Shown here piece by piece: positions 11,776-45,448 of a stretch of 64,000 nt of DNA. Numbering within the stretch: the first letter of the stretch is position 1; every line of letters starts with the position of its first letter. The DNA lies in assembly GCF_001426485.1 (NCBI RefSeq), contig NZ_LMET01000001.1:358844-422843 (forward strand). The letters are read 5' to 3'. The notes under the pieces were generated by a model. The model saw only the letters and a program-made list of their open reading frames with translations, ran no database searches and had not been told where the DNA came from. This stretch comes from Aeromicrobium sp. Root472D3 (GTDB lineage Bacteria > Actinomycetota > Actinomycetes > Propionibacteriales > Nocardioidaceae). The translations under genes were made by a program, and so were the position numbers.

Positions 11776-12207
11776 TCAGGCGTCCAGCACGCTGGTCAGC
11801 ACGAGCCGGGCCGCCTCGCCCCGCTCCACGACGACGACGGCGTTCTGCTCGTGGGCGACCGCCAGCGCGACGGCCTGCTCCTCGGGCAGGTCGAGCACGA
11901 AGAAGCCGTGCTCGGCGCGCCACGCCGGGTCCTCCCCGAAGCCGGCGTGCGGCAGCGCCACGAGCCCGTCGCTCGCGAGCGCCATCGCCATGCGGGCGTG
12001 GGCATCGGCGTTGACGTCGTCGTGGGTCGGCTCGCTGCGGGGGTTCCAGGCCGTGATGAAGACGCCCGACCGGGCCCCGTGCGCGTCCAGCACCGCGTCG
12101 ACCGCGGGCACGTGCCGGCCGATCAGCGCCTCGGCCACCGTGCCGCCGTCGGCACCGAGCACGGCGTAGCGCGTCCCGCGGTACGCCGCGATGAGGTCGT
12201 CGATCAT
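11776..12207 (-). CDS. DUF3293-domain protein
   Basis: 143 residues with the DUF3293 layout: FITAWNPRSEPTHDD followed by NADAHARMAMALAS and EHGFFVLDLPEEQAVALAVAHEQNAVVV. No catalytic motif or membrane segment is evident and the function of the family is unknown. The ATG at 12207 overlaps the end of the anthranilate synthase gene by four bases, so it is probably co-transcribed with and coupled to that gene and shares its Trp attenuator. Confidence 0.7.
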   Translation of the reverse strand: MIDDLIAAYRGTRYAVLGADGGTVAEALIGRHVPAVDAVLDAHGARSGVFITAWNPRSEPTHDDVNADAHARMAMALASDGLVALPHAGFGEDPAWRAEHGFFVLDLPEEQAVALAVAHEQNAVVVVERGEAARLVLTSVLDA

Positions 12208-14084
12208 CCGACCAGGTCGGTGACGAGGTCGCGCAGGATGCCGAAACCGTTCTGGGTCAGGATCGACTCGGCGTGGAACTGCACGCCGCGGTAGTGCGGG
12301 CCGGCCACCAGGTGGATGTCGCCGGTCGCCGGATCGGTCTCGACCGTGACGCCCTCCGGCAGGCCCGCGGCGGGCACGCGCGCCACGAACGTGTTGTAGA
12401 AGCCGACGGTCTCGGGCCGCTCGAGCACCGTCAGGCGGCTCTGCGTGCCCTGGAAGACGATGTCCTTGAACACCAGGTCGAGCCCGATCTGGTGGCTCAG
12501 CGTCTGGTGGCCGAGGCACACCGCGAGGAACGGCCGATCCGCGTCGAGGAGCCCGCGCACGACGCCGTGCAGCGTCGCCATCTTCGGGTCGGCGAGGTCA
12601 CGGGGGTCACCCGGCCCGGGCCCCACGACCACCAGGTCGTAGCCGTCGAGCGCCCGGTCGCCTCCCTGCTGGAGCGATGGCGCGTCGTGCCGCACGATGT
12701 CGGTCGTCATGCCCAGCACGCCGAACACGTGCGACAGCATGTTGACGAAGTCGTCCTCTCCGTCGACGATCACGACCCGCTTGCCGACCAGCGACGGCAC
12801 CGGCGCGGCGCCCGACTGGTCGGTCAGCCAGAACTGGCTGAGCCGCTGGTTGCGCGACCCCAGCGCGATGATGACCTCGTCCTCGCGCGTGAACGCGTCG
12901 AAGCCGTCGACCGGCTCGGGAGCCGACTCGACCAGGCCGAAGGCGCTGAGGATGCCGCCCGCCTTGGCCCACGTCTCGGTCGTCTCGTAGGCCGCGTCGG
13001 AGTCGCGCACGAGCGTCGCACCCGCCGTGACCTTGAGGTTGCCGTCGAGGTCGACGTCGGCCGTGCGGATCAGGATCGGGGCGTCGGCGCGCTGCTCGCC
13101 CTGCTCGTCGCGGCCGATCAGTGCCGCGACCGACGCGTAGTAGCCGCGCCCCTCGGGCTCGTACTGCTTGATCAGGCGGCAGGCGTTCTCGACCGGGCTG
13201 CCCGTCACGGTCGCGGCGAACATCGAGTCGCGCAGCACCTCGCGGACGTCGCGGTGCGTGCGGCCCGCCAGGAGGTACTCGGTGTGCACGAGGTGCGTCA
13301 TCGGCTTGAGGTACGGGCCGAGCACGAGACCGCCCTCGTGGCAGATGTCGCACATCATCTTGAGCTCTTCGTCGACGACCATGAAGAGCTCGTAGATCTC
13401 CTTCTCGTCCTGCAGGAACGACAGCAGCTCGCGCTTGCGGTCGGCGTGCGTCTCGAGCCCGCGCATGCGGAACGTCCCGCTGATGGGGTTCATCCGCACC
13501 TGGCCCGCCTCGAGGCTGACGTGCCGCTCGGGGCTCGCCCCGATCAGGTAGCGGTCGCCCGTGAAGATCAGGAACGTCCAGAAGGCGCCGCGCTCGCGCT
13601 CGAGCAGCCGGCGGAACACCGTGAGGGCCGCGTCGTGCCCCCAGTCGGCGACCTGCGCCCGGTAGTGGCGCCCGATGACGAGGTTGGCGCCCTCGCCCTG
13701 ACCGATCTCGTCGTCGATGATGTGGCGGACGATGCCGGCGTACTCGTCGTCGGACGTCTCGAAGCCGCCACGATCGGTGAACTCGACGGGCACGTCGGGC
13801 AGCAGCTCGAGCAGCTCGGTCAGCGGCACCTCGGCGCTGTGCCGGATCTCGATCGCCGACAAAGGCGTCCCGTCCTGGTGCGCCTCGAAGCCACGCTCGC
13901 GGGCCTGCGCGTACGGCACCAGCACGAGGTGGTCCCACGCGCGCTCGGCACCGGTCCGGACGGGGATGTCGGCCAGGACGTCGAGATCGGTGCGGGGCCC
14001 GCCGACCAGCGTGACGGTGTCGGACTCGCGCACCCGGATCAGCGCGAACGCGGGCTGGGCGAGGGTCTCGTCGAGGGCGGTCAT
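12204..14084 (-). CDS. Fused anthranilate synthase (TrpE-TrpG), PhzE-type
   Basis: 626 residues joining a chorismate-utilising synthase (about 1-410) to a class-I glutamine amidotransferase (about 425-626). The synthase half has MNPISGTFRM, DEELKMMCDIC, GSPVENACRLIKQYEP and GRGYYASVAAL. The amidotransferase half has VVGPGPGDPRD, the nucleophile Cys in AVCLGHQTL and the His-Glu pair in VQFHAES. Sequence details resemble PhzE (aminodeoxyisochorismate synthase), but no phenazine gene is nearby, and the upstream leader encodes tandem Trp codons with an attenuator. Trp control strongly favours anthranilate synthesis for tryptophan. The ATG at 14084 has AAGGACC upstream. DUF3293 is coupled downstream. 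Confidence 0.85.
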   Translation of the reverse strand: MTALDETLAQPAFALIRVRESDTVTLVGGPRTDLDVLADIPVRTGAERAWDHLVLVPYAQARERGFEAHQDGTPLSAIEIRHSAEVPLTELLELLPDVPVEFTDRGGFETSDDEYAGIVRHIIDDEIGQGEGANLVIGRHYRAQVADWGHDAALTVFRRLLERERGAFWTFLIFTGDRYLIGASPERHVSLEAGQVRMNPISGTFRMRGLETHADRKRELLSFLQDEKEIYELFMVVDEELKMMCDICHEGGLVLGPYLKPMTHLVHTEYLLAGRTHRDVREVLRDSMFAATVTGSPVENACRLIKQYEPEGRGYYASVAALIGRDEQGEQRADAPILIRTADVDLDGNLKVTAGATLVRDSDAAYETTETWAKAGGILSAFGLVESAPEPVDGFDAFTREDEVIIALGSRNQRLSQFWLTDQSGAAPVPSLVGKRVVIVDGEDDFVNMLSHVFGVLGMTTDIVRHDAPSLQQGGDRALDGYDLVVVGPGPGDPRDLADPKMATLHGVVRGLLDADRPFLAVCLGHQTLSHQIGLDLVFKDIVFQGTQSRLTVLERPETVGFYNTFVARVPAAGLPEGVTVETDPATGDIHLVAGPHYRGVQFHAESILTQNGFGILRDLVTDLVG

Positions 14085-14139
14085 GTCAGGTCCTTCGGTT
14101 CATGCCCCGGCCGGACGAGGAGCGTCGTGAGACAACGAT

Positions 14140-14168
14140 GCCCAGAGCCGGCGCGAGGCGGTCTGGGC
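14140..14168 (-). terminator. Trp attenuator terminator hairpin
   Basis: In the leader RNA of the anthranilate synthase gene, GCCCAGA (14168-14162) pairs perfectly with TCTGGGC (14146-14140); an inner CCG/CGG extends the stem around an eight-base loop. AUCGUUGUCUC follows, a modest U-rich tail. It lies between the leader peptide stop (14189) and the structural start (14084), where an attenuator should be. Upstream, GGTGGC-GCCACC-N6-GGTGGC (14205-14182) can form alternative pairings, the first copy spanning the Trp codons. I could not derive the full antiterminator pairing by eye. Confidence 0.7.
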
Positions 14169-14188
14169 GTGGGGTCGACAGGCCACCG

Positions 14189-14227
14189 TTACAGGTGGCG
14201 CCACCACGTGAGGTGCTGGGTCGACAT
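14189..14227 (-). CDS. trpL: Trp leader peptide (12 residues)
   Basis: The short ORF encodes MSTQHLTWWRHL and ends in TAA. Two adjacent Trp codons in a 12-codon ORF, 104 bases ahead of an anthranilate synthase and followed by a strong hairpin, are the signature of ribosome-mediated trp attenuation. The ATG is six bases after TAGGCT (14239-14234), so transcription likely starts at the A of the ATG and the peptide is read from a leaderless mRNA. Low charged tRNA-Trp would stall the ribosome on the WW codons and change folding of the GGTGGC/GCCACC segments. Confidence 0.85.
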   Translation of the reverse strand: MSTQHLTWWRHL

Positions 14228-14233
14228 GGCAGG

Positions 14234-14239
14234 AGCCTA
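14234..14239 (-). promoter_or_regulatory. -10 box of the trpL-anthranilate synthase transcript
   Basis: TAGGCT on the minus strand, six bases upstream of the trpL ATG, matches the TANNNT -10 seen before many genes in this window. No convincing -35 was found at 16-18 bases. Confidence 0.55.
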
Positions 14240-14286: not shown

Positions 14287-14354
14287 ACGAGGGGGTTGCG
14301 GCCCCTGCGCGGGGGCCGCAACCCCCTCCCCTCAGGGCGGTGACCCCCTCGTCG
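14287..14354. repeat. GC-rich palindromic intergenic repeat, copy 1
   Basis: A perfect 17-bp inverted repeat: GAGGGGGTTGCGGCCCC (14289-14305), a 6-base loop, then its reverse complement (14312-14328). A third, degenerate inverted copy of the unit (GGGCGGTGACCCCCTCG) runs to about 14352, and CGACGAG/CTCGTCG flanks close the element. The same unit builds the element at 45364-45448. It sits between the divergent trpL and M20 promoters, where a terminator has no obvious use. Confidence 0.8.
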
Positions 14355-14376: not shown

Positions 14377-15588
14377 ATGGACATCGACGTCGACCTGATC
14401 AGGCGCGACCTGGCCCAGCTCGTCAACATCCCCAGCACCGGCGGCTCGGACGCCGAGGTGGCCGCCCAACGGTGGTGCGCCGCGACCCTGACGGGCCTGG
14501 GCCTCGACGTCGACCAGTGGCGGCTCGACCTCGACGCCCTGCGCGCCGATCCCGACTACCCCGGCGAGGAGGTCGAGCGCGAGGAGGCGTGGGGTGTCGT
14601 CGGCACGTCCGGCCCCGGCACGCCGGCGCTGATCCTCAACGGCCACGTCGACGTCGTCCCGCCGGGCGAGCCCGACTCGTGGACCAACTCCGACCCGTGG
14701 CACGTCCGCGAGGTCGACGACCGCTGGTTCGGCCGCGGCGTGTGCGACATGAAGGGCGGTGTCATCGCGATCATCGCGGCGGCCCGGGCCGTCAGCGGCC
14801 TCGAGCTGTCGAGGCCGTTCGCGGTGCACACGGTCGTCGGCGAGGAGGACGGCGGCATCGGCACGTTCGGCACCCTGCGCCGCGGCCACACCGGCGACGC
14901 GTGCATCATCGCGGAGCCGACCGCCGGCCAGGTCGTGGCGGCCAACGCCGGCTCCCTGACGTTCCGCCTGCAGGTGCAGGGCCGCTCGACCCACGGATCG
15001 ATGCGCGCGACGGGCCACAGCGCGATCAGCGCCTTCGAGCTGGTGCACCGCGCGCTCGCCGAGCTCGAGGACGTCCGCAACACCGCCCCGCCCGAGCCCT
15101 TCGGCATGCTGCCGTGGCCCATCAGCGTCGGCATCGTCCGCGCGGGCGACTGGGCCAGCACGGTGCCCGACCAGCTCGTGGCCGAGGGACGCTACGGCGT
15201 CATGCCGGGCGAGACGTTCGCCGACGCCAAGACCGTGTTCGAGAAGGCCGTGCAGCGCGTCGCGCAGACCGATGCGTGGCTCGCCGAGAACCCGCCCGTC
15301 GTCACGTGGCCGGGTGGCCACTTCGCCGCCGGGCGCCTGCCCACCGGCGACCCGTTCGGCGACCAGGTCGCGACGGCCGTCGTCGCGGCGGGGCAGCCCC
15401 TGCCCGAGCTCGTCGGCGCCCCGTACGGCTCCGACCTGCGCCAGTACGCGGCCGCGGGGGTCCCGACCGTCCAGTACGGTCCGGGCGACATCGCCGACGC
15501 CCACGCCGTCGACGAGGCCGTCAGCATCGCCGAGGTCATCGCCTGCGCGACGGCCTACGCCGAGCTGATCGTCGCCCGCTGCACCTGA
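14377..15588 (+). CDS. M20-family deacylase (ArgE/DapE-like)
   Basis: 403 residues of a di-zinc M20 peptidase/deacylase. Metal ligands are visible in LILNGHVDVVPPG (His, about residue 89), RGVCDMKGG (bridging Asp), VVGEEDGG (catalytic and metal Glu), and a late His in DAHAVDE. The lid domain carries GRSTHGS. It probably cleaves an N-acyl group from an amino acid in the cytosol; ArgE-, DapE- and carboxypeptidase G2-like activities cannot be separated by sequence, and no Arg or Lys pathway genes are nearby. The ATG follows CAGACT by six bases, compatible with a leaderless mRNA. Confidence 0.85.
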   Translation: MDIDVDLIRRDLAQLVNIPSTGGSDAEVAAQRWCAATLTGLGLDVDQWRLDLDALRADPDYPGEEVEREEAWGVVGTSGPGTPALILNGHVDVVPPGEPDSWTNSDPWHVREVDDRWFGRGVCDMKGGVIAIIAAARAVSGLELSRPFAVHTVVGEEDGGIGTFGTLRRGHTGDACIIAEPTAGQVVAANAGSLTFRLQVQGRSTHGSMRATGHSAISAFELVHRALAELEDVRNTAPPEPFGMLPWPISVGIVRAGDWASTVPDQLVAEGRYGVMPGETFADAKTVFEKAVQRVAQTDAWLAENPPVVTWPGGHFAAGRLPTGDPFGDQVATAVVAAGQPLPELVGAPYGSDLRQYAAAGVPTVQYGPGDIADAHAVDEAVSIAEVIACATAYAELIVARCT

Positions 15589-45363: not shown

Positions 45364-45448
45364 CGAGGGGGTTTCCGCCCCACGACGAGAGGGTTGCCGC
45401 CCCCGTGTGGGGCGACAACCCTCTCCTGGAGGGGCGACAACCCCCTCG
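45364..45448. repeat. GC-rich palindromic intergenic repeat, copy 2 (nested)
   Basis: Two nested inverted repeats fill the gap between metX and the convergent membrane-protein gene. The inner one pairs GAGAGGGTTGCCGCCCC (45387-45403) with its near-complement (45409-45425, one mismatch that is a G-U pair in minus-strand RNA). The outer one pairs CGAGGGGGTTTCCGCCCC (45364-45381) with 45431-45448 (two mismatches). All four arms are variants of one unit, CGAGGGGGTTGCCGCCCC, also used at 14287-14354. Here it could act as a two-way terminator. Confidence 0.8.

Follow-up and report, generated by a model that had tools for sequence, protein, structure and literature searches.

The gene at positions 12204–14084 (minus strand) of the 64,000-nucleotide stretch of DNA from the soil bacterium Aeromicrobium sp. 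Root472D3 analysed here (the window) encodes a 626-residue PhzE-like protein in which a chorismate-binding domain (PF00425) is fused to a class I glutamine amidotransferase domain (PF00117), and it is preceded by a short open reading frame with two adjacent tryptophan codons. The locus thus raises the question of which chorismate-utilizing enzyme is encoded and how the sequence in front of the gene might control it. The original prediction proposed a leader peptide, trpL, translated from an mRNA without a 5′ leader and followed by an attenuator, and held that this link to tryptophan would help to correct the annotation of the synthase. Taken as a whole, the analysis indicates that the locus is very probably a ribosome-mediated transcription attenuator on a leaderless mRNA, controlling the cell's only anthranilate synthase, a PhzE-like fused TrpEG.

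All of the elements originally named are present in the sequence of the minus strand, and both their coordinates and the distance of 143 nucleotides from the leader ATG to the trpEG gene proved to be correct. The −10 box TAGGCT (14234–14239) lies six nucleotides upstream of the leader start codon, with the spacer CCTGCC between the box and the ATG (14227), and its position predicts that transcription starts on the A of this ATG. The trpL reading frame (14189–14227) specifies the peptide MSTQHLTWWRHL through the codons ATG TCG ACC CAG CAC CTC ACG TGG TGG CGC CAC CTG TAA, with the tandem tryptophan codons, which are conserved in the genus, at 14206–14201 and the stop codon at 14191–14189. The stop codon sits in the loop of a protector hairpin (segments 1:2, 14182–14199) formed by GCCACC (14199–14194) and GGTGGC (14187–14182). 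A terminator hairpin (segments 3:4, 14140–14168; GCCCAGACCGCCTCGCGCCGGCTCTGGGC) with the arms GCCCAGA and TCTGGGC is followed by AUCGUUGUC, which has four U residues in nine. A putative antiterminator (segments 2:3, 14157–14187) would pair GGTGG.CTG (14187–14179) with CAG.CCGCC (14165–14157). A Shine–Dalgarno-like site, AAGGA (14091–14095), precedes trpEG.

On the other side of the leader, a divergent gene on the plus strand (14377–15588 of the window) encodes an ArgE/DapE-type M20 deacylase, and the same gene is a neighbour of the leader at several further Aeromicrobium loci. Copies of a 17-bp repeat, GAGGGGGTTGCGGCCCC, lie at 14289–14328 and, as a set of four between convergent genes, at 45365–45447. 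The genome holds 41 copies of it (with up to two mismatches) versus four of the reversed control, often 22 bp apart and ordered ++/−− as palindromes; no copy was found near trpL in other Aeromicrobium loci.

The 64 kb window contains a single reading frame of at most 30 codons with adjacent tryptophan codons and a TANNNT box six or seven nucleotides upstream of its start, whereas shuffled sequences contain a mean of 0.05. The folding energy of the single 143-nucleotide leader is unremarkable relative to shuffles (z = −0.64), and a search of the region against Rfam found no family matching the leader. The evidence for the leader is conservation rather than folding stability. Comparison of the regions upstream of the enzyme gene in 104 members of the Nocardioidaceae identified a tryptophan leader in 48 of them, 47 with two adjacent tryptophan codons and one with a single codon. 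Nearly all of these 48 loci belong to Aeromicrobium, with a few in sister genera; one Aeromicrobium locus (L010) and four other sampled loci have no leader. The leader is not a general feature of the Nocardioidaceae, as Nocardioides and most other genera do not have it. A covariance model built from the Aeromicrobium leader was also scanned over 296 Actinomycete genomes with no use of gene information, and it matched all sampled Aeromicrobium genomes except that containing L010, together with five others. In two of these five (G383 and G320, from another family) the match lies directly upstream of a trpEG homologue.

The RNA architecture was examined in a structural alignment of 36 leaders. 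Standard pairs occupy 96.6% of the alignment cells assigned to the protector and terminator hairpins, six pairs show changes on both sides, and none of 500 shuffles was as good on any measure; versions in which the partner strand was slid reached only 35–43% pairing. The middle pair of the protector covaries between AU, UA and GU, and the hairpin as a whole appears as GCCACC/GGUGGC or, in another subgroup, as CCUCC/GGAGG. RNAalifold recovers both hairpins unaided. For the antiterminator, the five-pair register on the alignment gave no separate covariation, and when its strands were swapped between two subgroups the foreign pairs were almost as good as the native ones. The terminator hairpin has a median energy of −22.6 kcal/mol, obtained by a search anchored on the conserved arm; an earlier automatic choice by stability had fallen on wrong, longer hairpins. 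The U-tract that follows has a median of four U residues in nine across the genus, as at this locus, and it is because of this poor tract that a consensus terminator scan scored none at trpL.

In the proposed mechanism, the A of the leader ATG would be the first base transcribed by RNA polymerase, and the 5′ AUG would receive a ribosome directly. A shortage of charged tRNA-Trp would make this ribosome stall on the tandem UGG codons and cover GCCACC, leaving the downstream segment GGUGGCCUG free to pair with CAGACCGCC; this antiterminator would take up the terminator arm and transcription would run on into trpEG. When tryptophan is plentiful the ribosome would be positioned at the stop codon, covering GGUGGC, and in an untranslated leader GCCACC would itself pair with GGUGGC; in both situations the GCCCAGA/UCUGGGC hairpin would form and transcription would stop.

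These states were modelled in 42 leaders by masking the bases under the ribosome and folding the nascent RNA as far as the loop of the terminator; the measure was the expected number of pairs that the ascending arm of the terminator forms with the segment preceding the hairpin. The mean number of these antiterminator pairs was 10.5 for a ribosome at the second tryptophan codon, 2.7 for one at the stop codon and 1.9 in naked RNA, and the order of the three states was the same in nearly all of the 42 leaders. The recurring antiterminator helix pairs GGUGG.CUG with CAG.CCGCC. Shuffled spacers still gave 7.8 antiterminator pairs on average; thus, part of the effect is owing to GC content. In the model, the folding pattern is that of classical attenuator logic, including the shut-off of an untranslated leader. 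At equilibrium the terminator predominates in the full-length RNA (about 0.95) whichever ribosome state is imposed, so the switch must be kinetic and decided during transcription. The proposal of an attenuator is supported by the covariation of the protector and terminator and by the ribosome-state folding.

The same peptide could sense tryptophan and yet act otherwise than by intrinsic termination, through Rho-dependent termination or through control of trpEG at translation. The weak U-tract after the hairpin would fit such a scheme, as would the attenuators without obvious terminators of mycobacterial cys operons, for which Rho has been suggested (PMC1262725). However, no part of the leader is better conserved than the terminator hairpin, which also covaries and leaves the Shine–Dalgarno site of trpEG uncovered 45 nucleotides downstream, and in another family the hairpin of an orthologous leader (L232, from genome G383) is a canonical terminator followed by a U5 tail. 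We therefore regard control by Rho or at translation as unlikely and favour intrinsic termination.

The enzyme indeed looks like PhzE, as originally noted: its best match in the PDB is 3r74 (E = 1.9 × 10−142), which we take to be a PhzE structure, while entries for TrpE reach only about 10−16. Against the canonical TrpE model TIGR00564 it scores 100.6 bits (cut-off 517.7), and no NCBIfam model exceeds its cut-off for this protein. The distribution of the family points to a different function. A PhzE-like enzyme is present in 194 of 197 Nocardioidaceae genomes, none of which contains a canonical TrpE over the cut-off, whereas all 14 sampled genomes from other families of the order do. The Aeromicrobium sp. 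Root472D3 genome contains trpC, trpB and trpA together, with trpB over its cut-off, and also trpD. Its other two chorismate enzymes, identified by motif and layout, are a PabB-PabC-PabA fusion with a PIKGT motif and an isochorismate synthase, which leaves the PhzE-like protein as the sole candidate for anthranilate synthase. The former (L220, 543–3227) is apparently a fusion of aminodeoxychorismate synthase and lyase in the order PabB-PabC-PabA, 894 residues long in its longest reading. The PhzE-like protein is also related to fused chorismate-binding and amidotransferase proteins of Streptomyces that carry leaders. Its assignment as the anthranilate synthase TrpEG is thus supported by the leader and by the gap in the pathway, and the suggested correction of its annotation appears to be justified by the tryptophan leader, the lack of a canonical TrpE in the family and the presence of the other trp genes. 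As far as sequence can settle the matter, the PhzE-like genes of this group would be the anthranilate synthases of the whole Nocardioidaceae.

A true ADIC synthase (PhzE) serving a phenazine-like product, with the leader merely balancing the use of chorismate, would account for 3r74 being by far the closest solved relative. It would leave the family with no other TrpE candidate, and no PhzD or phenazine genes adjoin the gene at this locus. (A genome-wide search for PhzA/B, PF03284, found none here and none in G034, the intended positive control, so that this absence is uninformative.) In addition, a leader-bearing homologue from Streptomyces venezuelae is a fused TrpEG that, despite its similarity to PhzE, was reported to act as an anthranilate synthase rather than as an ADIC synthase, according to the account of Ashenafi (2008) given in PMC3111181.

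The relation between leader and PhzD was examined outside the family, in 40 homologues from the rest of the class. A leaderless tryptophan leader precedes 29 of them, none with PhzD upstream; the remaining 11 have no leader, and in eight of these a PhzD-type motif lies immediately upstream. PhzD was recognized by one motif within 500–1500 nucleotides, so that its number is a minimum. A single branch of a maximum-likelihood tree built from 42 proteins divides the leader-bearing from the PhzD-adjacent enzymes (support 100/97). Among the sampled homologues, none with an adjacent PhzD gene has the leader, and the PhzD-adjacent proteins make up a clade of their own, which makes an ADIC synthase at the present locus highly improbable and favours TrpEG. 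The split also suggests a rule for annotation, in which a leaderless tryptophan leader in front of the gene would indicate tryptophan synthesis and a neighbouring PhzD would indicate ADIC and phenazine-like products. Such a rule matters to surveys in which phzE serves as a marker for phenazines.

The trpL mRNA appears to start at its own start codon. A TANNNT box lies exactly six or seven nucleotides before the leader ATG or GTG in all 48 leaders, compared with a box at such spacing at two of 484 other ATG/GTG positions (0.4%), although a box at 4–9 nucleotides was among the criteria by which the 48 were selected; the informative features of these loci are the tight spacing of six or seven nucleotides and the shared tryptophan codons and terminator. 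A Shine–Dalgarno-like sequence precedes the leader reading frame in one of the 48 and is lacking in the other 47; such a site is found before trpEG in 29 of the same loci. The fixed spacing, the near-absence of ribosome-binding sites and the precedent of trpL1 in S. lividans (PMC8079986) support the leaderless start that had been proposed. A start further upstream, with the leader translated from a conventional 5′ untranslated region, would be in keeping with the lack of a recognizable −35 region, but it is very hard to reconcile with this spacing and lack of ribosome-binding sites, with the mapped leaderless starts of trpL1 (PMC8079986) or with the near-identical peptide that precedes a homologue of the enzyme in S. 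canus (L212), and we give it little credence.

The box behaves differently in loci with and without the leader. No box lies just upstream of the enzyme gene itself in the 48 leader-bearing loci, whereas in 37 of the 56 family regions without a leader a box is found 6–9 nucleotides before the start of the enzyme gene. TAGCGT or a similar sequence occupies this position in L063, L092, L097, L105 and other leader-less family loci. In these 37 attenuator-free Nocardioidaceae regions the enzyme mRNA itself looks leaderless, judging from the position of the box. The Aeromicrobium locus L010 has lost the leader, and its promoter lies directly in front of the enzyme. It seems that the box serves whichever start codon stands first and that the attenuator constitutes a module placed between the promoter and the enzyme.

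A tentative outer helix, P1 (14174–14225), would pair GUCGAC at 14225–14220, which overlaps the leader start codon, with GUCGAC at 14179–14174 and so enclose the protector hairpin; other examples are AUGACAG/CUGUCAU and AUGUCGACG/UGUCGACGU. P1 is better than in shuffled sequences (p < 0.05) in only 13 of 42 loci. It is conceivable, though doubtful, that this helix puts the state of the switch in direct competition with the arrival of the next ribosome at the 5′ AUG. If so, initiation would be coupled to attenuation in a way that is impossible in leaders with a conventional 5′ untranslated region.

The leader RNA model additionally matches leaderless leaders with adjacent tryptophan codons (MTRLQQQWWRRL, MTRTQQQWWCRL and MRTRTFAWWPRR) in front of Methyltransf_11 genes, in L230 (1500–2356), L231 (family f31, genus g81) and L233 (family f37), minus strand. 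The encoded proteins are mutually related and uncharacterized, and two further relatives (L276 and L277) have single-tryptophan leaders with a box. These methyltransferases are apparently under tryptophan attenuation, as far as their leaders suggest.

Several known systems resemble the Aeromicrobium locus in part. PhzE (PDB entry 3r74) shares the domain order and the sequence over residues 37–623, but phenazine-type homologues adjoin PhzD and have no tryptophan leader. The trp attenuators predicted in Streptomyces and Corynebacterium by Seliverstov et al. (2005; PMC1262725) likewise have double or triple UGG codons and competing GGCC-rich antiterminators and terminators, but their terminators end in poly-U, and the set comprises Corynebacterium and Streptomyces and, as read here, no Nocardioidaceae. 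The trpL1 leader of S. lividans TK24 (MFAHSTRNWWWTAHPAAH), which was mapped as leaderless in 2021 and precedes the monocistronic anthranilate synthase gene trpE SLIV_27120 (PMC8079986), likewise has a leaderless leader peptide with tandem tryptophan codons and two hairpins; it differs in that its start is mapped whereas that in Aeromicrobium is predicted, and in the peptide outside the tryptophan run. The S. canus leader, MFAHSTQNWWWTAHPAAH, is nearly identical to trpL1. In S. venezuelae a trp attenuator was described by Lin, Paradkar and Vining (1998), and it is cited as tested in PMC1262725 and PMC4833913. As represented in the citing papers, it too combines a tryptophan leader peptide and attenuator with a monocistronic PhzE-like fused TrpEG; that system belongs to another family of Actinomycetes and has three tryptophan codons rather than two, a longer leader region and a richer U-tract. 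The combination of leader and PhzE-like TrpEG has thus already been described in Streptomyces, and Aeromicrobium is a further case. What is added here is the spread of the leader, the family-wide lack of a canonical TrpE, the split between leader and PhzD, and the change of the leaderless start between leader and enzyme, and the proposed mechanism offers a well sampled and testable case of attenuation on a leaderless mRNA.
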